DNA of 64,000 nucleotides from Paenibacillus sp. MMS20-IR301 (GTDB lineage Bacteria; Bacillota; Bacilli; Paenibacillales; Paenibacillaceae), in contig NZ_CP135275.1 of assembly GCF_032302195.1 (NCBI RefSeq), positions 1,736,001-1,800,000 of the forward strand, given 5' to 3'. The number at the start of each line of letters is the position of its first letter. The first letter of the stretch is position 1. Below, in pieces: positions 13,068 to 54,383 of this stretch. The notes below the pieces were generated by a model. It was given only the letters and a program-made list of their open reading frames with translations. It did no database searches and was not told the DNA's origin. The position numbers and the translations under genes were made by a program.

Positions 13068-14012
13068 CTATTCTATCATAGTTGTTAACCCAGCCCCCGG
13101 CTTTTCTGTCCCATGATGCAAAACAGCGGGCCCTTGTTCTATAAAATGTCTACGTAGCTGGTTTGGCGTAACTCCATATGCCTTCTTAAACATGCGGTCG
13201 AAATACCCTACATTATCAAATCCGACTGTTCCAGCAATATCTGTAACCGTTCTTTTTGTAGCCAATAACATTTTTCTGCCTTGCTTAAGACGAAATTGGA
13301 TCAAAAAATCTACAGGTGAAGTAGCTGCTCCTTCTTTAAAACAGCGCAAAGCCTCACTTTTACTTACTTTAGCCGCAAATGCAATATCTTCAAGACGAAT
13401 TTTGTCCATAAAGTGGTTTCCAATGTATTCTATCATCAAACGCAGACGTGTCTGGGTAGTGATATAGGTTGCGGTATGAGGAGAAAAAATGCAGGAATCT
13501 TGATGCAAAAACACTTGGCGCCATATAGAGGTAGTTGCAATTTGTATATCCAGCTCCCTTGTCTCATCCCCTGAATTGCATAAGCTAAAAATATGGTTTA
13601 AGGATCTCCGAATATCCTCTTGCCAGCTAACCCTGCTGCTTAAGGTTAAGTATGAGATCTGAGAGGTTTGTATAGGCCGTATATATTTTTGATACACAGT
13701 CTGGTTTCCTCCAGCAATTAACTCCGGAGAGAATACTATATTGGGAACAAGTGTATGGTTCTCCGCTTCATAACCGTGAATTATCCCCGAATTGATAAAA
13801 ATCCCTTCTCCTTTATGGAGCACAACCATTTGATCACCGATCTGATAGTTAGCCTCACCTTCTTGAATGAGTGCAAACTCTATTTCATCATGCCAATGGC
13901 AATTAACTCTGTGGTCAGGATAATGATTAATATCATCAAGATAATATTGAAATGGAAAATTTTTGGATCCATGCGTTGTTATTTCCCGAAGCTGGTCATT
14001 TGTAATAACCAT
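13068..14012 (-). CDS. AraC-family transcriptional regulator
   Basis: I choose the ATG at 14012 (MVITNDQLRE) because AAAGGATGG lies 12 bases upstream; the ATG at 14027 touches that site. An N-terminal cupin-type sensor (NCHWHDEIEFALIQEGEA, near residue 40) is followed by two C-terminal helix-turn-helix units (LEDIAFAAKVSKSEALRCFKE and the VGFDNVGYFDRMFKKAYG block). The layout is that of one-component sugar-responsive activators. It is divergent from the MFS gene at 14141, its likely target. Confidence 0.88.
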   Translation of the reverse strand: MVITNDQLREITTHGSKNFPFQYYLDDINHYPDHRVNCHWHDEIEFALIQEGEANYQIGDQMVVLHKGEGIFINSGIIHGYEAENHTLVPNIVFSPELIAGGNQTVYQKYIRPIQTSQISYLTLSSRVSWQEDIRRSLNHIFSLCNSGDETRELDIQIATTSIWRQVFLHQDSCIFSPHTATYITTQTRLRLMIEYIGNHFMDKIRLEDIAFAAKVSKSEALRCFKEGAATSPVDFLIQFRLKQGRKMLLATKRTVTDIAGTVGFDNVGYFDRMFKKAYGVTPNQLRRHFIEQGPAVLHHGTEKPGAGLTTMIE

Positions 14013-14140
14013 ATTATGTATATCCATCCTTTCTCAATGATTAATGTGATATTGTACAATATTTTTAGGTAATACTGCAAGTAAACTGGAAAGTTCATGT
14101 GATATATTACATCTCACATGCATCTCCAGAGGAGGATTTT

Positions 14141-15322
14141 ATGGCAACGCTGTTACTGGTAGTCATTTACATCATTTTTATAAGTCTTGGAATTCCTGAT
14201 TCTTTGTTCGGGGCAGCTTGGCCAGCTATTTACGAAGAATTTAGCTTACCAGTTTCAGCAGCAGGATCTGTGACGTTTACTATTTCGGCTTGTACAACCA
14301 TTTCCAGCCTTCTTAGTGCAAGGCTTATTAATAAGTACGGCACAGCCAAGCTTACTGCAATCAGTGTTTTCCTGACAGCTACAGCATTATTGGGCTTTTC
14401 ACTTTCTCCAAATATAATTTGGTTCTGTTTATTCGCTGTTCCGTTAGGACTAGGTGCAGGAGCTGTAGATGCAGCACTCAACAATTATGTTGCGCTTTAT
14501 TATAAAGCCAGCCATATGAATCTCTTGCACTGCTTTTACGGTCTTGGAGTTTCTGTAAGTCCATATATCATGTCACTTGCACTTTCACAACAGAATAATT
14601 GGCGGGGTGGCTATAGCAATGCTTTTTGGATTCAGATAATTATCGCATTAATTGCCCTTTGTACTTTACCGCTCTGGAAGAAAGTACATCTACGCAAGCA
14701 AGAACCTGAAGATGAAGTTTTTCATATAGTTAGCATTACTAAACTATGTAAACTTCCCGCTGCAAGAGCAGTATTCTTTATACTCATCAGCTCTTGCGCT
14801 ATTGAGTATACGGCTGGCATTTGGGGAAGCACTTTTCTAGTGAACACTAAAGGATTAACTGCCGAGAACGCTGCTAAATGCCTTGCCTTGTATTATATTG
14901 GACTAGCTACCGGTAGACTGTTAGCAGGTTTGGCAGCAACCCGATTGTCAAGCTGGAAATTGATTAGTATCGGCCAGAGTGTCTTGATTACCGCGATTTT
15001 CATGCTCATGCTGCCATTGCCTACAAGCGTTTCAGTTGGAGCATTATTTTTAATCGGTCTTGGTAACGCCCCTATATTCCCTAATATTCTTCACTTAACT
15101 CCACAGAATTTTGGAAAAGAGTACTCACAGTCCATGATGGGAGCACAGATGGCTGTTTCCTATGTCGGGATCGCCCTGATGCCTCCGCTTTACGGTATAC
15201 TTGCACAAAAACTTAGCATGAGTATATTCCCTTATTTTATAGTGCTCTTATTTTCTTTGATGGTCTTCTCCATTTACCGTCTAAGAGCTACTCTGAAGGA
15301 ACAGCAAATAAAACAGCATTAG
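14141..15322 (+). CDS. MFS transporter, sugar permease-like
   Basis: The start at 14141 follows AGAGGAGG by 6 bases, so the ATG at 14099 is rejected. About 12 membrane helices are seen over 393 residues. SLGIPDSLFGAAWPAIY at the first helix is typical of the FucP-like group of bacterial MFS proteins. The cytoplasmic loop between helices 2 and 3 reads ARLINKYGTAKL. The divergent AraC regulator and the acetyltransferase remnant downstream suggest that it once belonged to a small sugar module. The substrate is unknown. Confidence 0.85.
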   Translation: MATLLLVVIYIIFISLGIPDSLFGAAWPAIYEEFSLPVSAAGSVTFTISACTTISSLLSARLINKYGTAKLTAISVFLTATALLGFSLSPNIIWFCLFAVPLGLGAGAVDAALNNYVALYYKASHMNLLHCFYGLGVSVSPYIMSLALSQQNNWRGGYSNAFWIQIIIALIALCTLPLWKKVHLRKQEPEDEVFHIVSITKLCKLPAARAVFFILISSCAIEYTAGIWGSTFLVNTKGLTAENAAKCLALYYIGLATGRLLAGLAATRLSSWKLISIGQSVLITAIFMLMLPLPTSVSVGALFLIGLGNAPIFPNILHLTPQNFGKEYSQSMMGAQMAVSYVGIALMPPLYGILAQKLSMSIFPYFIVLLFSLMVFSIYRLRATLKEQQIKQH

Positions 15323-41225: not shown

Positions 41226-42398
41226 TTGATTAAGGCACTGCTAATAGATGATGAACGACTGGCTATAGTTAAACTGGAGTTTATGCTTAATGAAATGAAA
41301 ACTGTGGAGGTTGCAGGATGCTTTACGGATCCTGTACAAGCTCTTGAGGCTGCTCCCCGCTTAAGTCCGGATGTGATTTTTCTGGATATTGAAATGCCGG
41401 AGCTTAACGGTCTTATGGTCGCAGAACAACTTCAGAGCATCTGTCCCAAAGCAATGATCGTTTTTTTGACAGCCTACAATAACTATGCCGTTGATGCCTT
41501 TGAGCTTAATGCGCTGGATTATATTCTAAAGCCTGTTAACCGCAGCAGACTTTCGGTAACACTTGAGCGGCTGGAGAAGCGTCTGGAGGCGCAAGCGTTG
41601 TTACATCCGGTCAAAGCTACTCTGGTGCACTGCTTCCAATCGATCCGGTTCGAATACGGGGGCGTTATAATTCCCAATTTCCGCTGGCGCACTACGAAGG
41701 CTCAGGAGCTGTTCGCGTATTTATTGCACAATCGTAACCGCTTTGTTCACAGGGATGCGCTTATTGAACTGCTATGGCCTGACTTTCCAGTCAAAAAAGC
41801 CTCCTCGCTACTGTACACTACAATTTATCAGGTTAGGCAGTGCCTTAAACAGGGGGAAATTGATCTGCAGATCAGTAATGTCAGTGCCGGTGAAGGCTAC
41901 CTGCTTGAAGTTAAAGGACTGCATGTCGATGTCGACGAATGGGAAGAAGGTATTCAGCGTCTGTCCTTAATTCATTCCGGCAATGTTCTGGAGCATCATC
42001 GCTTATTCGAACTTTACATAGGGGACTATATGGGGGATTATGATTTCTTATGGGCAGAAAGTGAACGGCAGCGTCTTCGCACGATCTGGCTTCATCACGC
42101 TATGAATATTGGTAATTTCTATATCTCCTGCAACAAACTTGCTGAAGCAGTAACGGTGTATCAGCGAATCGTTCAGATGCAGCCCTACTTTGAGCAGGCG
42201 CATTTCGGATTAATGAAGATCTATGAGACCGTCGGGGACCGGCCAGCTGTTGAGAGTCAATATAATCATCTCTCGGAAATACTTCTGTATGAGCTGGGGA
42301 TAGAACCTATCACTGAAATTACTAATTGGTATGAAACATGGAAACAAGGTAATCACAAGAATATACCGCTTGAAGACAAAACCGCCGCTTCGTTATGA
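41226..42398 (+). CDS. Response regulator with winged-helix and BTAD domains (SARP-like)
   Basis: The TTG start lies 9 bases after GGAGGTG. The receiver (1-120) has LLIDDE, phospho-acceptor VIFLDIEMPE, FLTAY and the ILKP lysine. An OmpR-type winged helix (about 145-235, with RRTTKAQELFAYLLHN-like segment and ALIELLWPD) and a BTAD helical-repeat domain (about 240-380) follow. Regulators of this build commonly accompany the 7TM hybrid kinases found at 46434 and 49568, so those are its likely partners. It converges on the adhesin gene with a shared terminator. Confidence 0.88.
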   Translation: MIKALLIDDERLAIVKLEFMLNEMKTVEVAGCFTDPVQALEAAPRLSPDVIFLDIEMPELNGLMVAEQLQSICPKAMIVFLTAYNNYAVDAFELNALDYILKPVNRSRLSVTLERLEKRLEAQALLHPVKATLVHCFQSIRFEYGGVIIPNFRWRTTKAQELFAYLLHNRNRFVHRDALIELLWPDFPVKKASSLLYTTIYQVRQCLKQGEIDLQISNVSAGEGYLLEVKGLHVDVDEWEEGIQRLSLIHSGNVLEHHRLFELYIGDYMGDYDFLWAESERQRLRTIWLHHAMNIGNFYISCNKLAEAVTVYQRIVQMQPYFEQAHFGLMKIYETVGDRPAVESQYNHLSEILLYELGIEPITEITNWYETWKQGNHKNIPLEDKTAASL

Positions 42399-42423: not shown

Positions 42424-45400
42424 TTATTTTTTAGATTCCCTGAATTTCCTGGAGAGTATGAACCCGAGAAGGATCAGTCCAATTCCAGCTGCGTAAATCA
42501 AAATGGGTGCTTCCTCTCCTGTCTGCGGAAGCTTGCCCGGCAGACCGCTTTGGTTCGCAGGTTCTTGTTGCACTGGTTCGTCTACGGTCCCTTTCGGCAC
42601 CTCGTCAACCACTACCTCGATTTCGAGCTCTTGCTCCTCACCATTATTATTAATGATGATGGTAAACTTATCTTTGCCTGTATAGCCAGGGTCTGGTGTG
42701 TATTTCCATTTCCCGTCAGGTGTAATTACGACGGTTCCATGTTCAGGCTTGTCACCAATACTAGGTATCCCTCCAAGCGGGATCTCACCCTCAATCGGAA
42801 CATCCTCTATTGTAGTGACAGCGGTGGGTTGTGGACTAGAAGGACTGCTAGATGCAGGTGTCACTCCCGGTGCAACAGTAGGTTCTGGTGAAGCTGTTGG
42901 AGTCACTGCTGGGGTTACTGTTGGACCCGGTGTGACTACGACCCCTGGTACGCCTGGAGTTGGCGTCGACGACGGTAATGATGGTACATATGGTGTTTCT
43001 GTTGGTGCCATTGTTGGCGCAGGAGTCGGCGTTGCCGTTGGTGCTATTGTTGGCGTTGCTGTTGGTGCTTCAGTCGGTGCTACTGTCGGCGTTGCCGTTG
43101 GCGCTACAGTAGGTGTTGCTGTTGGCGCTTCTGTCGGTGCTACTGTTGGCGTTGCCGTTGGAGCTATAGTCGGTGCTACTGTTGGTGCTACTGTTGGCGC
43201 TAAAGTCGGCGATGCTGTCGGTGACGGTGATACCGTTGGCGCCACTGTCGGCACAACTGTTGTTTTATTTGTAATTTGCAGCTCTATACCTGTAGTTGAA
43301 TTGATTTTGACTGGATGAGGCGTCGTATCTAACACGTAACCTGCAGGTGAAGTTTTTTCGATTACTGTGTAATCGCCTCCGAGCAATTTAGTGAATTCAA
43401 GCTTACCTTCTACATTAGTAACTCCCGAATTAATCCAAATCTGCTCATTGCCGGCGATACGGAATAAATCAAATTCAGCTCCCTGGAGAGTTTTACTATG
43501 ATTGCTGGCATCGATCTTCTCAATACTAAGGGTACCTCTTACACCGCTTCCTGTACCAGATCCGCTTGAGAGCTTAACCGTGATTTCGGAATTGCTGTCT
43601 TTGGTCACTTCTTTTACATTTTTCCCTTCGAGGTTTACCTCATTACTAACCTGCTCGTTATTCTGTGCAGCAATCAGTGACTGGTACTTAAGGATATAGG
43701 CTTCTGAAATTTCACTTACAAACTTCAGCTGGAAGCTTTCTTTACCGTCACTGTCCTTCAGAAATTTCAGAGTATAATCCTTCCCGTTAACCAGTTCCTC
43801 ACTGGCTGGCGTTATTGTTCCGTTGGCCGCAACATTTGTCTTGTAGAGATGATAAGTGTTGGTGAGCAGAATTTGGTTCGCACTCGGAAGGTCTGTTAGT
43901 ACAGCATCCTTCACAACAGATTGATTCCGGTTAATATATACCGTCCAATCAATCTTATTTCCGTTTTGCGCCCCTGTTTTGTTGATATATTCGCCCCCGT
44001 TAGGAATGTTGACAGAAGCATTCAGGTCAGCGGATTCCCGGGCCGTACCGTCATACAGAACCGCAGTGTTGTTAACTTCCTTCAGGTCGATAACCTGACC
44101 GGCGAATGAAGTCTTAAAGGTAACATAAAATGCATAATTGATCGTTTTATTAAAGCTTATCTCCAGCTTCCCGCCGCTCAGAGTCACCTTGTAATCCTCT
44201 TCATTGACGTTTACATCCTCATCAGGGTTCCCGTTCTTGCCGTAGACCCATTTGAACACCTTAACGGAATCCAGATCTACAATTTGGCCTTCGCTGATCG
44301 TATCTGTCAGTTTGGCCTTGGCCAGGGATTTCATATTATAGTTAGCCCCGATATTCCAAGTGATTTTCTTGGCAAGAGCATCGTAAGAACCGTTCTTAAG
44401 GCCGTTATTTTTCACTTCAGCTCTAGGATTGAACGTTGAAGTTTCCGTTATTGTCCGCACATCGGTTTCTCCGGTCTCTAACCATTCCAGCACTGCCTGA
44501 TTAACGAAGCGGTCTTCTCCCTCCGAGAGCCAGTCATAATTGAACTGTGTGGTATAGGTGATGGTATACGGTTCATGAATCGGCGCTTTGAAAATGATCG
44601 TAAACCCGTCGGTTGCCGTCACAGGGTTGTGCTCCGTATAGACTACCTCTGTAACGACGGCAGCACCTCCCCCGGCCGGTTTAATTACGAGGGTTCCTGG
44701 GACAAGCTTCAGTCCTGCGTTAAGGAAGGTATCCGTTACCTTCAAATTATTCATTGTTTTGGAGTCTTTGTTGATTGTAATTGTCCAGTCTACTGTCTTG
44801 TTCAGGTAATGGATATTGCTGTTTCCCTTGGACAATATTTGTTGGGTGATATTCTGGGAAGATGATTCTTTATGTTCACCAAAAATCACTTCATTAGTGA
44901 CATTACCATTTTTGAATACACGTTCTGATGCCTTTGTCTTGTATTCGATGCGGTATGCCGAGTGAATATCATCTTTGAATTTAAGTGCAAACTGATTTTT
45001 ACCATCTACCACTGAGGTAGTAACCGTGTATTTATTGTCCGGAAGCGGCTGTTCATCCTTGACCCCTGTACCATCGGCCGCAATAGTCACCGGGTATACC
45101 ATCAGTGAATTTGCGATGAGCTCTTGTTTGAGGTCTACAGTATCCTTCAGCAGCGCATCGTTTGCCGGAATCAGCTTTTCATTGTAGTTGAATTCAATGG
45201 CCCAGCTGATAGTCTGGGTGGCAGAATCGTAGCCGGCAGTCACTTTATTAAGCGGCTTACCTCTTCCTGCGGTAACGGTAGCCTTTGATTCTTTGGATAA
45301 TCCGCCGTCGCCTGTAAATACCGCAGTATTCTCATAACTAACTGCGTCTTCACCGCTGGCTGTAATATCGGTGGTGAATTCTATACGATACGCCTTGATA

Positions 45401-46236
45401 ATCGGACTCTGATTAAATTTCAATTCCAGCTTCGCCGGGGCAGACCCGGAAGTGTTATAACTGCTTCCCGGAACAATGGCTCCAGGCGTGACTGTGCCAT
45501 CCAGATTCACTCCAAGCTCGCGCACTACAATGGTACTCGTATCCAGTGACAAACCTGCTGGAATGACATCGGTGACGGCAGCATTGCCTACACTTTCCAA
45601 GGCCTTGTTTACATCGACTGTCCAGTTGATTTGCTTCGGATTGTAGAATTGAGGTGCTGGAGTTCCTTTCTTCTCTACGGTCGAACTGACGTTAGGCTTG
45701 AATTGTAGTTCAATCACCTGGGTGCCGCCATGGATAGGAAACTCCACAAGCTGTTTCGTAGACCCGGATATTTTTTTAGAACTAAGCAGTGAGCGTACAG
45801 TGAAAGTGCCGCTTACTTGATCGTACTGTTCAATAAATTCATTGAACGTAAAGACCACATGATTGCTGTCTTTATTGACATGGTACGTACCGACCGCTTC
45901 ACTCCCAAATAGAAGCTCTCCATCTAAATCGTTATAGAGCTCGAATTGCCCCGGAAGATCAAATCCAAAAGTGGAGCCTGCTTTATACCCGTGCCCGTCA
46001 TATAATGACCAGTTGTAGTTTAATTCAGTGTGGGAATCCAGCTGATACACATTCCCGGTGACTGTCTCTGAGTAGTGGTCATCCGTATACACGGCAAGTG
46101 TTACACTTTGGATCAGATTTTCAGTAATATTACTGGGTTCTGCATAAGCGCTTTGTGTGAAAGATCCAAAGCTAGTGGTCCATTGGGTAACCATCAGGAT
46201 AAGAATGAGCCACAGGTTAATTTTTTTCACTTTCAT
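42424..46236 (-). CDS. LPXTG-anchored surface adhesin with collagen-binding-type and Cna-B domains
   Basis: The protein has 1270 residues. A signal peptide (cut after AYA, about 32) is followed by an N-terminal Ig-like ligand domain and five modules of about 140 residues of the Cna collagen-binding type (each opening with an I-W-x-I/V-x-x-N strand and a LTDTI-like strand). One SpaA/Cna-B domain (IEKIDA Lys, VIEKTSPAGY Glu for the isopeptide bond), a Thr/Pro/Ala repeat stalk, a cadherin-like domain (ITPDGKWKYTPDPGYTG) and the sorting signal LPQTGEE plus helix and basic tail complete it. Sortase would attach it to the cell wall. The binding target is unknown. AAGGAGGAAG precedes the ATG. Confidence 0.9.
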   Translation of the reverse strand: MKVKKINLWLILILMVTQWTTSFGSFTQSAYAEPSNITENLIQSVTLAVYTDDHYSETVTGNVYQLDSHTELNYNWSLYDGHGYKAGSTFGFDLPGQFELYNDLDGELLFGSEAVGTYHVNKDSNHVVFTFNEFIEQYDQVSGTFTVRSLLSSKKISGSTKQLVEFPIHGGTQVIELQFKPNVSSTVEKKGTPAPQFYNPKQINWTVDVNKALESVGNAAVTDVIPAGLSLDTSTIVVRELGVNLDGTVTPGAIVPGSSYNTSGSAPAKLELKFNQSPIIKAYRIEFTTDITASGEDAVSYENTAVFTGDGGLSKESKATVTAGRGKPLNKVTAGYDSATQTISWAIEFNYNEKLIPANDALLKDTVDLKQELIANSLMVYPVTIAADGTGVKDEQPLPDNKYTVTTSVVDGKNQFALKFKDDIHSAYRIEYKTKASERVFKNGNVTNEVIFGEHKESSSQNITQQILSKGNSNIHYLNKTVDWTITINKDSKTMNNLKVTDTFLNAGLKLVPGTLVIKPAGGGAAVVTEVVYTEHNPVTATDGFTIIFKAPIHEPYTITYTTQFNYDWLSEGEDRFVNQAVLEWLETGETDVRTITETSTFNPRAEVKNNGLKNGSYDALAKKITWNIGANYNMKSLAKAKLTDTISEGQIVDLDSVKVFKWVYGKNGNPDEDVNVNEEDYKVTLSGGKLEISFNKTINYAFYVTFKTSFAGQVIDLKEVNNTAVLYDGTARESADLNASVNIPNGGEYINKTGAQNGNKIDWTVYINRNQSVVKDAVLTDLPSANQILLTNTYHLYKTNVAANGTITPASEELVNGKDYTLKFLKDSDGKESFQLKFVSEISEAYILKYQSLIAAQNNEQVSNEVNLEGKNVKEVTKDSNSEITVKLSSGSGTGSGVRGTLSIEKIDASNHSKTLQGAEFDLFRIAGNEQIWINSGVTNVEGKLEFTKLLGGDYTVIEKTSPAGYVLDTTPHPVKINSTTGIELQITNKTTVVPTVAPTVSPSPTASPTLAPTVAPTVAPTIAPTATPTVAPTEAPTATPTVAPTATPTVAPTEAPTATPTIAPTATPTPAPTMAPTETPYVPSLPSSTPTPGVPGVVVTPGPTVTPAVTPTASPEPTVAPGVTPASSSPSSPQPTAVTTIEDVPIEGEIPLGGIPSIGDKPEHGTVVITPDGKWKYTPDPGYTGKDKFTIIINNNGEEQELEIEVVVDEVPKGTVDEPVQQEPANQSGLPGKLPQTGEEAPILIYAAGIGLILLGFILSRKFRESKK
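42985..43265 (-). repeat. Degenerate tandem repeat encoding the APT-rich stalk of the adhesin
   Basis: Short units encoding PTVAPT, PTATPTVAPTEA and variants repeat about 20 times in frame. They form an extended stalk between the Cna-B domain and the C-terminal domains. Such tracts can change length by slippage. The opposite strand has a long open frame (42698-43318) that is only a by-product of the repeat. Confidence 0.85.
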
Positions 46237-46433
46237 GAATGAATACTTCCTCCTTCTTGGTCATCGATTGGGTTTGACTTCATTGTCCGTTGTACAAGCA
46301 ATTTCTGGGATCATTGCATTGACAGCAGTTTAAGTTACTGTAAACTTGGCATATGAACAATATCTGAACAATGTCGGCAACCCAATTAATTACAACAAAG
46401 AATTCTATTCTTTATTGTGGAAATGAGCGCTTC

Positions 46434-49400
46434 ATGCAAAACGATAATTCAATCTTCCCGTACAAATATAAAGTTGCTGCATTGCTCGCATTGTTTATCC
46501 TATTGCTGCTAGGCTGCCGCTTAATCTGGTCCATGGTTAACAGCACACCGGATCACCCTCAGGTGTCCGAGGGGATTCTTGATATGCGCGGCTGGGATGT
46601 GGAGCAATCCCATTCCATCCCTTTACAAGGCGAATGGGAATTCTATCCGGATCAGCTGCTTGGACATAACGGATTCCCGGGTCGGAATGCTGGCTACATC
46701 CAGGTTCCGGGTGACTGGAGTAACAACCTGGAGGTATCAAAGCGCAGACCAGCCTTCGGATATGGAACCTACAGGCTGCGTATTCTTGTGGACCCGAAGG
46801 CTGAAGCTGCTTACGGATTCTGGATTCAGCGGATTCAATCCGCTTCAGAAGTCGAGATTAATGGTGAAATCACGGCGGTCTACGGCAGGGTTGCAACGGA
46901 AGCGTCTTTTTATCAACCTGTAACGAGGTCATATACGCCTAACTATACGGGGGGCCAGTCTGACGATGAGCTTGAGCTTGTTATCCGGGTAGCCAATTTC
47001 AGCCATCCGCCACAAGGCGGAATTGTGATGAATATCCGTTTTGGCTCACAGGAGGCCATTGCGAGGGAACGTTCGTTATCCATTGGGTTACAGCTGGTTA
47101 CTTTTATGATTCTGTTGCTTCACATGCTGTATGCCGGCATTCTATATTACTTCAACCGGAAGGAAAAAGCGCTTCTTACATTTCTGTTGCTTTTGGCGGT
47201 AGCCGCCCTTTCCATCATGTCTAATCATGATTCTCTATTGCTGCAATGGCTGCCGCTTAATGATATTTGGATGTTAAAGGTCAAAATGCTGGCCTATTTA
47301 TATATTCCCTTCTTAATGCTCATACTGGTCTGCCAGCTGACTGATTTGCAGGACCCGCTGAAACCACTTATGATTTTCTCCTCTGTACTTGGAATGGTTA
47401 CACTTTTTATATTAGGGTCTCCTCTGTTGCACATTTATAATTACATAGCCAGCGTCCTGCTCGTGCTGCTTTATGGGATATCTTATATATGGCTATTTAT
47501 TATTACTGGAAATCTGGTACTCCGCAGGTATAAATATTCATTATTTTTGCTGTTTACAGCTACTGCTATTTGTTCAAGCTTAGTCTGGGGATCGATTCAG
47601 ATAACCAGCAGGGATTCTGGTATCTATTATCCGTTTGATCTGATTGCCGCTCTTATAGGCTTCTCGACCTTCTGGTTTAAGAAATACTTTGAGAACACCA
47701 AAGATAATGCCGAATTGTACCGCAGGCTTAGTGAATCCAGCAAACGGAAAGATGAATTTTTGGCCAATACCGCACATGAACTGCGGACACCCTTGCATGG
47801 GATTATCAATCTGGCTCAATCTGTGCTGAGCAGTGACAGGCAGGGTGAGCACCAAATGCCGGTTAGAAACAATATGGGGCAGTTAATCTCAATCAGCCGC
47901 CGCATGTCCTATATTGTGAATAGTCTCTTAGACCTCTCACGTCTGCGGGACCATAGGCTCGCTATACAACCAGGGCCTGTGTCGATCCATTCAACTGCAG
48001 CCGGAGTAACTGATATGATGCAAAATCTGATACAAGATAAACCGGTTACGTTATCCGTAGATATTCCACCGGATCTTCCCTTAGCCTTCGCAGATGAGAA
48101 GCGGGTCATCCAAATATTGATTAATCTCTTAAATACTGCAGTCACATTCACAGAAAGCGGAGCAATTTCCATAACGGCCAAAGCTCTAGAGAAACACCTG
48201 CTTATCCAGATCAAATATAAGGGTTATGGTATAGCTGCTGCTGAACTGGACACGATTACCGGGGTCTATGAAATTGCCGGAGAAGAGAATTCAGGAATTG
48301 GGCTTGGGTTGATTATTAGCAGGCAACTGGTTGAATTACATGGCGGTTCATTTCAAATGAGTTCCACTTCGGGGGAAGGGAGCCTATTCAGCTTCACGCT
48401 TCCAGTAGCGGATACTTCAGCGGAGATCTCCCAGAATATGAACCTGATCAGCGGCGGGAATCAAGGAAGCAGCATGAATGCCATGGTTCAACATGCTTCC
48501 GGTGATAAGGGCTTTGAAGATCAGCTTGCTCAATTGCCAGAGCATAAACTTAATATTCTAGCCGTGGATGATCATCAAGTTAATTTGAAGGTTCTTGCCA
48601 GCATCCTGCCTGCAAGTCAATTCAGTATAACGATGGCTGGCAGCGGCCTTGAAGTATTGAACCTGCTGACGAACTCAGCACTGGAGTGGGATCTGCTGAT
48701 AGCTGATGTGATGATGCCCCAGATGTCGGGATACGAATTAACGCGCAGGATACGCAAGCGTTACTCACACTCTGAGTTGCCCATCCTGCTCTTGACTGCC
48801 CGTAATCAGATAGAAGATATTCATGCCGGATTCTCAGCCGGCGCCAATGATTATGTATCCAAGCCTGCTAATGCAATAGAACTGCAGTACCGGGTGTGGT
48901 CTCTGGCAACCCTCAAACGTTCAGTACATGAACGTCTGAGGATGGAGGCTGCCTATTTACAGGCACAGATCCGCCCGCAATTTATTATCAGCACACTTAA
49001 TGCTATTATGGCCCTAAGTATCACTGATATTGAGCAGATGCGTGACCTCAGCGAAGCATTTACTACGTACTTACGGATAAGCTTTGACACTGTTAACTCT
49101 GACCAGTGGATCATGCTCCGGGATGAGCTTGATTTAGTGCGTGCTTATCTTCATGTGGAGAATGCACTGTTGAGTGAACCCATTACTATTATATGGGAGA
49201 TCGGGGCTGATTTAAGCCTTCCTGTTCCTCCACTCCTCCTTCAGCCTTTTGTTGAAAATGCTGTGAATCACGGCCTTCGGGATCATAAGTCCGGACAGAA
49301 ATTGTATATACGCGTTGTGGATCAAAGCAGCTCGACCTTATTCCAAATACGCGATAATGGAGTTGGCATGGAGGACAGCCAGATCCATGAGCTGCTGAAC

Positions 49401-49553
49401 CTCGGCCGGCATGCAGAAGGTGCGGCAGGTATACCGAGCACGAACCGGCGGCTGCTTCAGCGTTATGGCCGTGGACTTACGATAACAAGTATTCCTGGAG
49501 AAGGCACTTCGGTTTCTTTTGAAATTCCGCAGCGACAAAAAATACGGCCATAG
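46434..49553 (+). CDS. Hybrid sensor kinase 1: jelly-roll 7TM sensor, HisKA, degenerate ATPase, receiver, second kinase module without its His
   Basis: The ATG at 46434 is preferred; one at 46371 has no ribosome site. The protein has 1039 residues. The order is N-terminal helix, extracellular jelly-roll (GEWEFYP, VPGDW, GYGTYRL), about seven helices, HisKA, ATPase 1, receiver, LytS-type dimerisation part and ATPase 2. HisKA keeps His448 in AHELRTPLHG. ATPase 1 has lost the Mg-binding Asn (Thr568 in NLLNTA) and the G1 Asp (Tyr595 in KYKGYG). The receiver is intact (Asp758). The LytS-type module has Gln849 where the phospho-His belongs (QIRPQF), while its ATPase 2 keeps FVENAVNHG and DNGVGM. 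It is the paralogue of the next gene, 14 bases away. Confidence 0.88.
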   Translation: MQNDNSIFPYKYKVAALLALFILLLLGCRLIWSMVNSTPDHPQVSEGILDMRGWDVEQSHSIPLQGEWEFYPDQLLGHNGFPGRNAGYIQVPGDWSNNLEVSKRRPAFGYGTYRLRILVDPKAEAAYGFWIQRIQSASEVEINGEITAVYGRVATEASFYQPVTRSYTPNYTGGQSDDELELVIRVANFSHPPQGGIVMNIRFGSQEAIARERSLSIGLQLVTFMILLLHMLYAGILYYFNRKEKALLTFLLLLAVAALSIMSNHDSLLLQWLPLNDIWMLKVKMLAYLYIPFLMLILVCQLTDLQDPLKPLMIFSSVLGMVTLFILGSPLLHIYNYIASVLLVLLYGISYIWLFIITGNLVLRRYKYSLFLLFTATAICSSLVWGSIQITSRDSGIYYPFDLIAALIGFSTFWFKKYFENTKDNAELYRRLSESSKRKDEFLANTAHELRTPLHGIINLAQSVLSSDRQGEHQMPVRNNMGQLISISRRMSYIVNSLLDLSRLRDHRLAIQPGPVSIHSTAAGVTDMMQNLIQDKPVTLSVDIPPDLPLAFADEKRVIQILINLLNTAVTFTESGAISITAKALEKHLLIQIKYKGYGIAAAELDTITGVYEIAGEENSGIGLGLIISRQLVELHGGSFQMSSTSGEGSLFSFTLPVADTSAEISQNMNLISGGNQGSSMNAMVQHASGDKGFEDQLAQLPEHKLNILAVDDHQVNLKVLASILPASQFSITMAGSGLEVLNLLTNSALEWDLLIADVMMPQMSGYELTRRIRKRYSHSELPILLLTARNQIEDIHAGFSAGANDYVSKPANAIELQYRVWSLATLKRSVHERLRMEAAYLQAQIRPQFIISTLNAIMALSITDIEQMRDLSEAFTTYLRISFDTVNSDQWIMLRDELDLVRAYLHVENALLSEPITIIWEIGADLSLPVPPLLLQPFVENAVNHGLRDHKSGQKLYIRVVDQSSSTLFQIRDNGVGMEDSQIHELLNLGRHAEGAAGIPSTNRRLLQRYGRGLTITSIPGEGTSVSFEIPQRQKIRP

Positions 49554-49567
49554 AAGGTATTTAAACT

Positions 49568-52500
49568 ATGAATAAAGAATCTGTAAAATACTATTTGAGA
49601 TATGTTGTACTAATCCTATTCTTTTTAATGCTATTCCTTAGCTTACAATGGGTATGGCAAATGAGGTTCATTACACCGGAGCAACCCAGAGCCGAGCAGG
49701 GTGTAATTGATTTTCGGGGATGGGATTTCAATCACTCCCATTCCCTCCTTCTGGACGGAGAATGGGCCTTCTATCCGAGTGAGTGGTTGACCCTGGACGA
49801 TATTCCGGGCGGTGCTGACACCAGCAGCCATACCATTCAGGTTCCCGGAAGCTGGAAAGAGGAAGTAGGATCTTCATTAGGATATGGCACATACCTACTG
49901 CGCATTCTGATTGATCAGCCGGTGGACCAGCCATATGTCTTCTGGATTCATCAGATTCAAGCTGCTTCAGAGATCGAAGTTAACGGGAAAGTCCTATACA
50001 CTATGGGAGATCCTGATGTTATTGAAGAACAATACAGACCGGAATCGGTTCCTTTTACGGTAAGCTATGATGCGTTGAACGGGAATGAGCTTATTGTAAT
50101 CATCCGGGCAGCCAATTTCGATCACGGAACAAAGGCCGGTATCTCCTACTCTATCCGCTTCGGGACTGAAGCTGCCGTTGATGCAGAACATAAGTATTCA
50201 ATGGCATTTCAATTCGGAATTATCCTTATATTTATGCTGCATGTGATCTATTCCGGTATACTGTTCATTATGTCCCGGGAGCGTGACTTATTGATTTTTA
50301 TGTTTCTGCTCATTTGTACCGTCCTGTCCGTTGCTTCCGATAATGATGCATTACTATTAAGTCTGCTGCCCCTCAATTATACGTGGGGCATCAAAATCAA
50401 ATTGTTAGCTTACTTATGGATGGTCTTCTTTAATCTGCTAATAACCTATAGTTTTAGCGGCTCCAAGGCTGAAGGGAAACTATTTAAAGCCTATCGGATG
50501 ATACTCTCCATTTATAGTCTTTATCTGTTGGCATTTCCTATTAAAGTGGTGCTGCTCTATGCAGATTGGATCTTCGGAGCCTTATATGTTGTTCCGGCCC
50601 TTTGGATGTTAATTATATATGTAAAAATGGTTTGCCTGCGAAAAAAAGATACAGGGTATCTATTGTTTTCCGCATGCGCCATGATCTCTGGAGTGCTATG
50701 GGGGTTTGCTGTGAATAGCGGAGAGAAAACGCTCCCGTTCTATCCGGTCGATATTCTTGCTGCCATCATAGGGTTTACGGCTTATTGGCTGAAGCAGTTT
50801 TTTCGTAAATCCCAGGAGAATCAGAAATTAACTCAAAAGTTGCTGGAAGATCATCGGGATAAAGATCAGTTCCTGGTTCAGACTTCGCATATTTTGAAAA
50901 ATCCGCTGGAGCATATTCTTCGGATCGCTCATTCACAATTTGCTGTGATTGATTATTCTACCGGCACAACTTCCAAAGATCATATCGGTTTGTTAATCCA
51001 GATTGGCAATCGTATGTCCCTTCTGCTTGATGATCTGCTCGACGCCCCTTTACTTGATGAGCAAGGAATACAGATGGATCTCAAAGATTTGGATATACGG
51101 AATGCCATTATGGATGTGATCAACATGCTCCAGTATCTAATAGAGGGCAAACCTGTAGAGATACAAGTTAATTGTCCTGCGACATTACCGTATGTTCATG
51201 CAGATGAGAAAAAATTGTCTCAAATCCTATACAACTTGCTGCATAACGCAATTAAGTATACAGAACAAGGTGAAATTATAATTGAGGCCGTTCCTGTAGG
51301 TGATCAGGTTAAGATTAGCATTAGGGATACAGGAATAGGAATGGATGAGGAAACGGCTGCCCGAATATTTAAGCCTTACGAACAGGGCAGCCAAATGATG
51401 GAGGGTGGTATTGGTCTGGGCCTAAGCATCAGCAAATGGTTAGCAGAGCTTCATCACAGTCAATTAACGGTGTATTCTAAGCCTAATGAAGGATCCACCT
51501 TTAGTTTTTCGTTAACCGCATCAGCCAATGGCATCATGCATCCTGAAGAATCTGAGATGATCATACATCCGGTTCATGGGTTAAACAGCCCTTTCCGCAG
51601 GAGCAGTCAGCATATTATTCTCACTGAAGATCATTCCGGGGCAGACACCGCAGGGCTTCCTAATGAAATGAACAGACCCCATATTCTGATTGTGATGGAT
51701 GATCCGGTTCAATTGAAGGTTCTGAATAGTATTCTCTCCGAAGATAATTATAGCCTGACTACAGTCTCCAGTACGCATGAAGTACTTGATCTGTTACGTT
51801 CTCAGTCCTGGGATTTGCTAATAGCAGATGTAAAATTGCCCCAGATGCCGGAAAATGAGCTTTTGGGACTGGTCAGGCAGCATTACAATGCTACGGAACT
51901 GCCTATTCTCCTGTTAATTTCCAGTTTAGCTTCAGAAGAAGTGTATAGGCAGTTTATAAGTAATGCTAATGACTATGTAACGAAGCCCATTGAGAGAGTG
52001 GAATTTAAATATAGAGTACAAGCCTTAATTTCGTTAAAACAATCGGTTGACCGAAGTATACGTATGGAAACAGCCTATTTGCAGGCTCAAATCAAGCCGC
52101 ATTTCCTGTTTAACACCATGAACTCCATAATGGCCCTTAGTGAATTTGACCTGGGACAGATGCGCAAGGTTACGAATGCATTTACCGATTACTTAAAGTA
52201 CAGTGTTGACTTCATGAATTCCAGTCAGCTGGTTAGTCTGGAGAATGAAATCTCTTTGGTAAAAGCCTATCTATTTATTGAAAAAATACGTTTTGAGGAC
52301 AGGTTATCTGTAATTTGGGATATTCAGCCGGATATTCAGTTCAAGCTTCCTCCGCTATCCATCCAGCCGCTGGTGGAGAATGCAGTGAGACATGGTTTAC
52401 TTAGCCGGACCAGAGGCGGAGAACTGATTATACGTATATATGAGACGGAAACTGCTGCATGCGTACAGATTATAGACAATGGAAAAGGAATTGCTGAAGC

Positions 52501-52675
52501 TGAAATTGAAGCCATCTTAAGCCCGGACCGGAATAACTCTGGCGGAATCGGTCTAAGAAATACTAACCGCCGTTTGATCCAGCGGTATGGTCACGGGCTT
52601 CGCCTTCAAAGTAAACTAGGGACAGGTACGACGGTCTCATTCTTAATTCCATTTAACAAAGAAGCCGATGCTTAA
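49568..52675 (+). CDS. Hybrid sensor kinase 2: same layout with different lost sites
   Basis: The protein has 1035 residues with the same order of domains as its upstream neighbour. The H-box of HisKA is degenerate (SHILKNPLEH: His441 kept, the following acid and Arg-Thr lost). ATPase 1 is intact (NLLHNAIKYT, RDTGIGM, GIGLGLSIS). The receiver keeps Asp754 and the KP lysine, but Ile replaces the conserved Thr/Ser (LLLISS). The LytS-type module is complete: His845 in QIKPHFLFN, PLVENAVRHG, DNGKGI, GGIGLRNTNRRL. The two proteins have lost mostly different functions, which points to joint action as a heterodimer. AGAAGGT precedes the ATG. Confidence 0.88.
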   Translation: MNKESVKYYLRYVVLILFFLMLFLSLQWVWQMRFITPEQPRAEQGVIDFRGWDFNHSHSLLLDGEWAFYPSEWLTLDDIPGGADTSSHTIQVPGSWKEEVGSSLGYGTYLLRILIDQPVDQPYVFWIHQIQAASEIEVNGKVLYTMGDPDVIEEQYRPESVPFTVSYDALNGNELIVIIRAANFDHGTKAGISYSIRFGTEAAVDAEHKYSMAFQFGIILIFMLHVIYSGILFIMSRERDLLIFMFLLICTVLSVASDNDALLLSLLPLNYTWGIKIKLLAYLWMVFFNLLITYSFSGSKAEGKLFKAYRMILSIYSLYLLAFPIKVVLLYADWIFGALYVVPALWMLIIYVKMVCLRKKDTGYLLFSACAMISGVLWGFAVNSGEKTLPFYPVDILAAIIGFTAYWLKQFFRKSQENQKLTQKLLEDHRDKDQFLVQTSHILKNPLEHILRIAHSQFAVIDYSTGTTSKDHIGLLIQIGNRMSLLLDDLLDAPLLDEQGIQMDLKDLDIRNAIMDVINMLQYLIEGKPVEIQVNCPATLPYVHADEKKLSQILYNLLHNAIKYTEQGEIIIEAVPVGDQVKISIRDTGIGMDEETAARIFKPYEQGSQMMEGGIGLGLSISKWLAELHHSQLTVYSKPNEGSTFSFSLTASANGIMHPEESEMIIHPVHGLNSPFRRSSQHIILTEDHSGADTAGLPNEMNRPHILIVMDDPVQLKVLNSILSEDNYSLTTVSSTHEVLDLLRSQSWDLLIADVKLPQMPENELLGLVRQHYNATELPILLLISSLASEEVYRQFISNANDYVTKPIERVEFKYRVQALISLKQSVDRSIRMETAYLQAQIKPHFLFNTMNSIMALSEFDLGQMRKVTNAFTDYLKYSVDFMNSSQLVSLENEISLVKAYLFIEKIRFEDRLSVIWDIQPDIQFKLPPLSIQPLVENAVRHGLLSRTRGGELIIRIYETETAACVQIIDNGKGIAEAEIEAILSPDRNNSGGIGLRNTNRRLIQRYGHGLRLQSKLGTGTTVSFLIPFNKEADA

Positions 52676-52696
52676 GCTGCATTGGCTTCTTTGTTA
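52656..52696 (+). terminator. Terminator overlapping the stop of kinase 2
   Basis: AACAAAGAAGCC pairs with GGCTTCTTTGTT; the TAA of the kinase gene lies in the apical part. The last codons of the gene thus form one arm of the hairpin. Confidence 0.75.
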
Positions 52697-52701
52697 AGAT
52701 C

Positions 52702-52748
52702 GCCTGTCCCAATCAGCCGTTTCGCAGATTTTGGGGCAGGCCTGAAAA
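52702..52748. repeat. Dispersed intergenic hairpin repeat, copy 1
   Basis: GCCTGtCCCAA...TTGGGGCAGGC with conserved loop-side AATCAGCCGT. It matches the copy at 61774 at 42 of 49 positions by my count. Both copies lie after a gene end in intergenic DNA. Confidence 0.7.
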
Positions 52749-52886
52749 AATTTAAAGATCAGGTACTCAACTTGTCCTCGCAGGAAGGAATTCCGAGTGG
52801 TCTTGCTTACAGGTTGTGGTCGGTAATTCTTCCTCTTTAGCCGTTCTACTAAGTTCCTGATGTTTGATTACAGATTCTCCTCATAC

Positions 52887-54383
52887 CTACCCCTGTGTTT
52901 TGTGAGAGATTGCCAATAATGTGTTATGAGCAAAGAAAAGAATGGCTGTTACGGACAAAAGTATAAAGGCTAGTGGTACAGCAAGCGACATGAAACCTAA
53001 AAAGAATTTGCCCCAGAAGTACCCAAAGAAAGATGGGAATATTGCTGAGAATACTATAGCAAAAGTAGAAACAATAGAAGTTATCCCGATTATTATAAAT
53101 CCCTTTACGGTAGGTAAGCCGAATTTATGAGAATTGGAAACTATTCTAGATACTCTTCTGATTATCAAAAATGTTAAAAGACAAATTGCAATAAACAAGA
53201 CAATACTCGCGGCTGACGTGATCGTGTCCAAAACTGCAAAGATGGAATCGCCAGGCATGGTCGGTTTGCCGCCATGAAGCAATACATTAATTCCTTTTGC
53301 AACGTCTGGGGCAAAAATGGATGAAGAGTTTGCAAGAACACTAATCGTAACCCCTTCGTCCGGAAGTATAATAACACGGGAGTTAAAACCAGGCACTTCG
53401 CCATCATGATGTATCATAGAACCATCTTCAGTTATCATCCATCCGGCGGCGTAATAAGACCCGTCAACCGCTTCAACGCTTGTATCCGGCGTTAATGCAC
53501 GTTTTACAAGGGCAGTCCAAAAATCTGAAATATAAGTTTTGCCTGAGAAAATATTAAGCCATCTGGATATGCCCTCGGAAGAGGCTAATATAAAGCCTGT
53601 TGATTTGCTACCATCGACCAAGGCAGCTGGCATGACTAAAGAGCGTGTTCCGAAAAACGCAGGTTTATGGCCTACAGCTAAATTGCCCGCAGCGTTTTCT
53701 TGAAAAAGCAGCGTATTTTCGTGTAAGCCTAATGGCTCAAGAATTTCTTCAGTCATAAACGTTGCAAAGCTTTTACCCGTAACAGTCTCTATTAGGTAGG
53801 CTAGTACATTGTAATTCGGAGAACCGTATTCGTATTGGCTCGATGGCTCAAAAGCCAGGTCAGCACCAACTAGCGCACGAACATTTTGTTCAAGAATATC
53901 CTCAGAGTTTTCCATTACACTTAGTTTCAAATGCTTTTTGTTTGTGAGACCGCTTGTGTGATATAAAAAGTTGGCAATTGTAACTTGAGAACCGCTATAT
54001 TCCTGTCCGTTTAGGCGGAAGTTAAGCCATGGTATATACTTTGTTATAGGTTCATTAATGTCTATTTCGCCACGTTCGTCCAGGAACATTATTGCAAATC
54101 CTGTGTAGGATTTACTAACTGAGCCTAGAAAAAAAAATGTATTGGGGTCTACACTGGTCTTTTTACTTTTATCAGTGTAACCGTACGAGTAGAATTCCGT
54201 ACCACTTTTGGTTGTAACAGATGCCGAAATTCCTGGCGTATGGCTTGCTTTTGCACTATCCTCAGTGTAACTTTGAATCGTAGACTGACCATTCGCCGAT
54301 GCATTAAGGCTAGGAGTTAGGCATGCTGCCACCGCAATTAGTGTTAGTGTAATTGCTGCCATAAAGCGTTTAATTGTTTTCAT
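52887..54383 (-). CDS. Beta-lactamase-fold serine hydrolase with C-terminal membrane helices
   Basis: The protein has 498 residues with a signal peptide (cut near NASA, about 31). The class C/PBP-like domain has SVSKSYTG (Ser-x-x-Lys), YGSPNYN (Tyr-x-Asn) and HHDGEVPG (third motif His-x-Gly). About four hydrophobic segments follow from residue 375. Proteins of this build (Pbp4*/FmtA-like) act on D-amino-acid peptides or esters at the cell surface. AAGGAGAAAT precedes the ATG. It stands as a single gene. Confidence 0.87.
   Translation of the reverse strand: MKTIKRFMAAITLTLIAVAACLTPSLNASANGQSTIQSYTEDSAKASHTPGISASVTTKSGTEFYSYGYTDKSKKTSVDPNTFFFLGSVSKSYTGFAIMFLDERGEIDINEPITKYIPWLNFRLNGQEYSGSQVTIANFLYHTSGLTNKKHLKLSVMENSEDILEQNVRALVGADLAFEPSSQYEYGSPNYNVLAYLIETVTGKSFATFMTEEILEPLGLHENTLLFQENAAGNLAVGHKPAFFGTRSLVMPAALVDGSKSTGFILASSEGISRWLNIFSGKTYISDFWTALVKRALTPDTSVEAVDGSYYAAGWMITEDGSMIHHDGEVPGFNSRVIILPDEGVTISVLANSSSIFAPDVAKGINVLLHGGKPTMPGDSIFAVLDTITSAASIVLFIAICLLTFLIIRRVSRIVSNSHKFGLPTVKGFIIIGITSIVSTFAIVFSAIFPSFFGYFWGKFFLGFMSLAVPLAFILLSVTAILFFAHNTLLAISHKTQG

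Follow-up and report, generated by a model that had tools for sequence, protein, structure and literature searches.

Two tandem hybrid kinases of Paenibacillus with reciprocal losses of catalytic sites: a candidate heterodimeric sensor kinase

FasB and FasC of group A Streptococcus are sensor kinase-like proteins encoded at the same locus that form a heterodimer according to two-hybrid assays; FasC has been proposed to be a pseudokinase whose histidine in the dimerization and histidine phosphotransfer (DHp) domain is phosphorylated by the kinase domain of its partner (PMC12675982). In the split kinase CheA3/CheA4 of Rhodobacter sphaeroides, the phosphoacceptor and the ATPase are located on two proteins, neither of which autophosphorylates alone (PMC3591291). 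RetS and GacS are two kinases that form a heterodimer in which RetS inhibits GacS, and both homodimerise too (PMC12189002, PMC12675982). In TodS/TodT, one kinase carries two transmitter modules flanking a receiver and operates a His-Asp-His-Asp relay (PMC4321377). These accounts, and all literature comparisons below, follow the accessible portions of the sources, which also include PMC9491836 and PMC4734776. Here we describe two tandem hybrid kinases, K1 and K2, in a 64,000-nucleotide stretch (the window; contig NZ_CP135275.1, positions 1,736,001 to 1,800,000) of the 7.69 Mb genome of Paenibacillus sp. MMS20-IR301. We consider it probable that K1 and K2 constitute a heterodimeric sensor kinase that divides one catalytic set between two proteins, with the first kinase module acting in trans, His845 of K2 as the output and a nearby BTAD regulator as the recipient. 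The two genes lie as follows.

46371..49553, + strand: K1, hybrid kinase 1; longest open reading frame (ORF), 1060 aa; conserved start at 46434 (Met22), giving 1039 aa
49568..52675, + strand: K2, hybrid kinase 2; ORF of 1035 aa, starting 14 nt past the K1 stop

The K1 start at 46434 is the aligned position of the start of the orthologue in G060, one of two further Paenibacillus genomes (G060 and G041) that carry the pair. K1 residues are numbered on the longest ORF, so that His448, Thr568, Tyr595 and Gln849 of an earlier sequence-only reading of this locus correspond to His469, Thr589, Tyr616 and Gln870. The domain order common to both proteins is sensor, seven-transmembrane (7TM) region, HisKA, ATPase1, receiver, LytS-type His domain and ATPase2; we refer to HisKA with ATPase1 as module 1 and to the LytS-type His domain with ATPase2 as module 2. 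With Pfam calls accepted at E up to 0.001, K1 contains HisKA, two stretches of HATPase_c, Response_reg and His_kinase, with 7TMR-DISM_7TM under the cut-off; K2 contains two stretches of HATPase_c, Response_reg, His_kinase and the same 7TM family. The combination of two HATPase_c stretches, Response_reg and His_kinase, by which we recognised a hybrid kinase, is thus present in each. A HisKA domain with a phosphoacceptor His and acidic neighbour is recognisable in K1; in K2 the Glu is gone and HisKA is unlisted by Pfam. With this last qualification, the ORFs and the Pfam calls bear out two tandem hybrid kinases with the domains that the sequence-only reading had assigned to them. The limits of K1 ATPase2, the K2 HisKA region and K2 ATPase2 were set by us from the alignment.

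47748..47948, + strand: K1 HisKA domain (Pfam); H-box HELRTP intact, His469 at 47775-47777; intact in 3/3 K1, not relaxed
48093..48410, + strand: K1 ATPase1, degenerate (Pfam and alignment); relaxed
48555..48890, + strand: K1 receiver, intact (Pfam); Asp733, Asp734, Asp779, Thr809, Lys831; not relaxed
48945..49172, + strand: K1 LytS-type His domain, His_kinase (Pfam); phosphoacceptor His replaced by Gln870 (48978-48980); not relaxed
49203..49535, + strand: K1 ATPase2 (alignment); Glu962, Asn963 and Asp995 kept, G2 box altered (Ala1018, Ser1023); not relaxed
50861..51061, + strand: K2 HisKA region, degenerate (alignment); H-box HILKNP, His441 kept, Glu replaced by Ile442; relaxed
51203..51517, + strand: K2 ATPase1, intact (Pfam and alignment); Asn556, Asn560, Asp587, G2 box
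51683..52015, + strand: K2 receiver, degenerate (Pfam); Thr replaced by Ile784, first acidic Asp by Met710; Asp754 and Lys806 kept; relaxed
52067..52306, + strand: K2 LytS-type His domain, intact (Pfam); His845 at 52100-52102
52325..52657, + strand: K2 ATPase2, intact (alignment); Glu937, Asn938, Asp970, GIGLRN

In K1 ATPase1, the N-box Asn is replaced by Thr589 (48135-48137) and the G1 Asp by Tyr616 (48216-48218). Given in the order window/G041/G060, the Asn of K1 ATPase1 has become T/G/G and its Asp Y/Y/F, and the LytS His has become Q/Q/E; the F-box FxPYEQG is gone in all three K1 proteins (alignment, by eye). The HisKA His and Glu and the receiver of K1 are intact in all three. For K2, the HisKA His reads H/R/Q and the Glu has become I/A/V; the receiver Thr has become I/I/I, and the first acidic receiver Asp reads M/D/T. 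ATPase1 and the LytS His of K2 are intact throughout, and ATPase1 has therefore been kept in G041 and G060, whose K2 HisKA His is gone. Every residue named by the sequence-only reading proved correct in the alignment, and the opposed pattern that it described (K1 missing two ATPase1 residues, Asn and Asp, and the His of the LytS-type domain; K2 with a degenerate H-box and without the receiver Thr) recurs in 3/3 genomes, the K2 His itself being lost in 2/3.

The sites lost from K1 and K2 are near-universal elsewhere in the family. From 185 ORFs, 140 matched and 114 distinct family proteins were aligned and scored at 25 positions; Thr/Asn, Glu/Asp and Asp/Glu exchanges were accepted as canonical, and ORFs of less than 850 aa or covering too little of the query were omitted. 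Broken family genes at loci L068, L099, L100 and L104 stayed outside these counts, and L069, shortened at its end, was included. Overall, 101 of the 114 proteins were canonical at all 25 positions. The six proteins of the three K1-K2 pairs are among the 13 exceptions; the other seven are L007, L066 and L136 (one deviating site each), L003 and L006 (three each), the truncated L069 (four) and the distant L108 (nine). In a set of 132 further family members, the HisKA His, the ATPase1 Asn and the ATPase1 Asp were each non-canonical in 1 protein, the HisKA Glu and the receiver Thr each in 2, and the LytS His in none. Judged by these counts, the site losses of K1 and K2 are far from chance.

Single-copy 7TM hybrid kinases of Paenibacillaceae share the architecture of K1 and K2, and some adjoin a related BTAD regulator and an adhesin; unlike K1 and K2, nearly all of them have intact catalytic sites in one protein. 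Tandem arrangement as the cause of site loss was rejected, because all six copies are canonical in three further tandem pairs (P. paeoniae, Cohnella sp. WQ 127256 and genome G367; loci L042, L070 and L190). Such complete tandem pairs may represent the state from which the split between K1 and K2 began. Within the family we also observed a distant full-length paralogue in the window's own genome (L006, G000:C1:6205543-6208650), about 31% identical, with the HisKA His replaced by Thr and the Glu by Gln; one G2 Gly is also lost and the remaining scored sites are kept. In two Brevibacillus panacihumi records (L068 and L099), the family gene appears to be fragmented.

The two genes also co-occur. 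At about 65% identity or more, orthologues of K1 and K2 occur jointly in the same 3 of 100 genus genomes (the window genome, G041 and G060), and an orthologue of either one alone was found in none of the 100. Relatives carrying each gene alone with the same substitutions, which the sequence-only reading had named as the observation that would speak against it, were therefore not encountered in this set. No other match there exceeded 48% identity with K1 or 49% with K2. When K1 was the only query, the same three genomes were the sole ones above 60% identity among 394 family genomes and again among 392 genomes sampled evenly across the order; a scan of named genomes with K1, from which records near the window's genome were possibly excluded, gave at most 48%. 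The pair is rare. At the G041 locus (L119), an opposite-strand gene that looks glycosyltransferase-like by eye lies between K1 and K2 (13640-14683), and both kinases are kept.

We then quantified evolutionary rates by domain, taking 691 complete-kinase pairs of similar overall identity as the reference for the domain identities across the three orthologues of each kinase. These pairs come from 125 proteins and overlap, with 37 disjoint pairs in one draw; the comparison excluded rows below 980 aa, the paralogues from the window's own genome (L003-L007) and the distantly related L108. In HisKA, the identity of K2 lay below all complete pairs (0/691 as low), and K1 was ordinary (321/691). In ATPase1, it was K1 that lay below all complete pairs (0/691), with K2 at 53/691. 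For the receiver, only 2/691 complete pairs were as low as K2, and K1 was again ordinary (345/691). The LytS-type His domain was unrelaxed in both proteins (448/691 as low for each), as was ATPase2 (418/691 for K1 and 578/691 for K2). The sensor was more conserved than expected, chiefly in K2 (z +3.5 to +4.0), which is partly an effect of matching overall identity. Marked relaxation thus falls on the domains with lost sites, save the LytS-type His domain of K1. Since this domain is constrained although its His is lost, it must still have a role; dimerisation with K2 and assistance to ATPase2 are obvious candidates. For the whole proteins, dN (nonsynonymous substitutions per site) is about 0.21 and dS (synonymous) about 1.4-1.7 in both K1 and K2, indicating purifying selection, with dS near saturation and some domains not computable. 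By this measure, neither gene is decaying freely.

AlphaFold2 monomer models of K1 and K2 (mean predicted local distance difference test score, pLDDT, 76 and 77) are silent on the heterodimer and on phosphorylation in cis or in trans. In K1 ATPase1 the block pLDDT was 79-89, except for residues 621-650 at 42-65, and the ATP lid of ATPase1 was modelled with low confidence in both; the receiver block scored lower in K2 (62-81) than in K1 (78-89). A sequence search of solved structures with K1 as the query matched single kinase and receiver modules and shorter hybrids, and no full-length relative was among the matches listed (60 of 264).

The neighbourhood offers a candidate regulator and a candidate target.

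41226..42398, + strand: candidate response regulator with a LytR/BtsR-like receiver, Trans_reg_C and BTAD domains
42424..46236, - strand: LPXTG-anchored collagen-binding surface protein, candidate target; transcribed divergently from K1 and convergently with the regulator
46237..46370, no strand: shared divergent control region of adhesin and K1; one block nearly identical in G060

G060 has the same neighbourhood of regulator, adhesin and K1-K2 as the window. In both, no kinase stands ahead of the regulator, and K1-K2 lie beyond the adhesin on its other side. The control region contains a promoter-like TTGACA-16-TAAACT at 46319-46346 (alignment) and an inverted repeat AAGTT-N6-AACTT at 46332-46347 (by eye), both present in the window and in G060, and its conserved block may be an operator. 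A promoter and terminator scan of 46100-52900 gave no more hits than shuffled sequence. The candidate regulator carries Trans_reg_C and BTAD in place of a LytTR DNA-binding output. At E<=1e-60 the window's own genome has just one other such regulator, which adjoins another kinase of the family, and many regulators about 60% identical to the 41226-42398 product were found. In 7/7 loci inspected (genomes G077, G056, G037, G039, G017, G081 and G029), out of a larger number that includes about ten further cases of a regulator beside a single kinase, the order is kinase, regulator, convergent adhesin-like gene, and the kinases are canonical at the scored sites. This arrangement recurs as a module (L176-L181, L186) in which one complete 7TM hybrid kinase is combined with a BTAD regulator and, in convergent orientation, a gene resembling a collagen-binding adhesin; it is likely an adhesion switch of the genus. 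By the same comparison, the BTAD regulator of the window is a likely, though uncertain, target of the K1-K2 output; it would probably act on the neighbouring gene for the collagen-binding surface protein, and may act on the kinase operon as well.

The losses, their conservation, the co-occurrence of the genes, the domain-specific relaxation and the neighbourhood are all seen in the sequences; from them we infer dimer formation, a direction of phosphorylation, and the regulator with its target. The acceptor of module 1 is intact in K1 alone and its ATP site in K2 alone, so that K2 ATPase1 would phosphorylate K1 His469 in trans, presumably within a HisKA bundle formed by both proteins. From His469 the phosphoryl group would move on to Asp779 in the receiver of K1, since that of K2 is incomplete. 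Module 2 would have His845 of K2 as its only phosphoacceptor, charged by ATPase2 of K2, or by ATPase2 of K1 in trans, and would donate to the LytR/BtsR-like BTAD regulator, whose receiver family fits a LytS-type donor. Asp779 of K1 could either pass its phosphoryl group to His845 of K2, as in TodS, or serve as a switch. The former would make a His-Asp-His-Asp relay that crosses subunits repeatedly, from K2 ATPase1 to K1 His469, K1 Asp779, K2 His845 and the BTAD regulator, with the retained ATPase2 of K1 perhaps charging His845 too; we regard this extended version as possible, though less likely than not. If it held, output would need both sensors in one mixed dimer, an AND gate fixed by reciprocal loss.

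The sequence-only reading had gone further, to an obligate heterodimer phosphorylated across subunits in which every function is present once and neither protein is complete alone. A mutually dependent heterodimer phosphorylated across subunits is the best explanation and gains independent support from the co-occurrence, from the reciprocal losses and relaxation, and from the intact ATPase1 of the two K2 orthologues that have lost their HisKA His; that the dimer is obligate and that phosphorylation crosses subunits is inferred. The tally of functions does not hold for ATPase2, which is kept and unrelaxed in both K1 and K2, nor does incompleteness hold for the LytS-type module of K2, where His845 and ATPase2 are intact.

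Several observations weigh against the heterodimer with module 1 in trans. The window K2 retains His441, without the Glu, so that self-phosphorylation is formally possible, and ATPase1 of K2 shows mild relaxation of its own (z -1.1 to -2.6; 53/691). Known pairs number only three, and in G041 the inserted gene separates K1 from K2. For ArcB, which also belongs to the HisKA kinases, autophosphorylation is reported to stay within a single subunit, whereas EnvZ mutants with the two defect types seen here restore one another when mixed; since one complements and the other works within a subunit, trans geometry is a genuine requirement of the proposal. As to the output, four inspected loci (G041, G082, G074 and G059) have a regulator 60-63% identical to the candidate with no family kinase adjoining it, and in 3/4 of them an adhesin-like gene lies beside it; regulator and kinase therefore need not adjoin, which makes the assignment uncertain. 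The G041 regulator, together with an adhesin-like gene, is on another contig than K1-K2, so the assignment rests on 2/3 genomes; G041 also has a complete single kinase (G041:C62).

Among the alternatives, the one that survives best takes K1 as a dead regulator: K2 would signal alone by way of its complete LytS-type module, with K1, itself unphosphorylated, tuning K2 allosterically. Kinases tuned by a partner kinase are described (RetS/GacS and DivL/CckA), and the LytS-type His domain of K1 is constrained despite the lost His, a pattern expected of a scaffold. A pure scaffold, however, would need neither an intact, unrelaxed H-box nor a complete, unrelaxed receiver in K1, nor would K2 need to keep ATPase1 where two of its orthologues have lost the HisKA His, and we consider this explanation unlikely. 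A phosphorelay split between K1 and K2 homodimers, with transfer between separate complexes or from other kinases of the cell, would not lack partners for cross-talk, as 152 places in the genome match K1 at E<=0.001 (varied kinases and receivers). HisKA phosphorylation, however, takes place within the DHp bundle, so that a separate K2 homodimer would hardly be able to charge a K1 homodimer that has no working ATPase1; co-occurrence and gene proximity also favour a direct complex, leaving this scheme improbable. That the system is redundant and partly decaying, its complementary pattern a coincidence, has the slimmest chance of all: the substituted sites do vary between species (T/G/G; H/R/Q), but both genes are under strong purifying selection across three species, pseudogene decay is disfavoured by dN and dS, the frames are open, the losses do not overlap and marked relaxation is confined to domains with lost residues.

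The origin of the two genes can be traced in part. In trees built with the catalytic columns removed and with rows close to one already kept dropped, both K1 and K2 nest among complete kinases. The sister group of K2 is a clade (X) of complete kinases that directly precede a BTAD regulator in nine genomes; of these nine kinases, two were represented in two trees and one in the third. K1 stands isolated on a long stem, its exact place uncertain and attraction effects possible. A recent tandem duplication, with K1 and K2 as sisters, was rejected (approximately unbiased test, p 9.3e-5, on a quick tree of 21 rows chosen by us). Therefore, either two distinct kinases of complete stock became neighbours and then split the work, or the X genomes lost the forerunner of K1; both fit. 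Because the G060 K2 groups with the window K2 apart from that of G041, the K2 HisKA His was probably lost twice among the orthologues, later than the Glu.

In principle, homodimerising kinases with paralogues can become interdependent by losing opposite catalytic halves, a possibility that the mixing of EnvZ mutants illustrates. K1 and K2 seem to be a natural instance in a two-module kinase, with complete single-copy relatives as a reference and three species to compare, and they offer a testable system for phosphorylation in cis and in trans, for obligatory heterodimers and for two sensors on one output. Neither this pair nor reciprocal point loss across two modules was found in the literature searched, mostly without subscription papers. 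As far as the accessible descriptions go, FasB/FasC differs in that loss of the kinase domain is one-sided, whereas K1 and K2 have two modules and a receiver each, with losses on both sides. CheA3/CheA4 are chemotaxis kinases from which whole domains are absent; K1 and K2 are membrane hybrid kinases in which all domains are present and the missing parts are degenerate, inactivated by substitutions. Phosphoacceptor and ATP site lie on separate polypeptides, by residues, for module 1 of G041 and G060, while the window K2 keeps His441 and module 2 of K2 is whole. TodS is a single protein with PAS sensors and no transmembrane regions that has all sites active in one chain; K1 and K2 share its order of transmitter, receiver and transmitter, with the active parts distributed over two proteins and a LytS-type second module. 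RetS/GacS resembles K1/K2 as a heterodimer of two kinases, without a described reciprocal loss. The nearest cases are therefore FasB/FasC in function, CheA3/CheA4 as a split kinase and TodS in architecture, and K1 and K2 are best filed with the split or heterodimeric histidine kinases.

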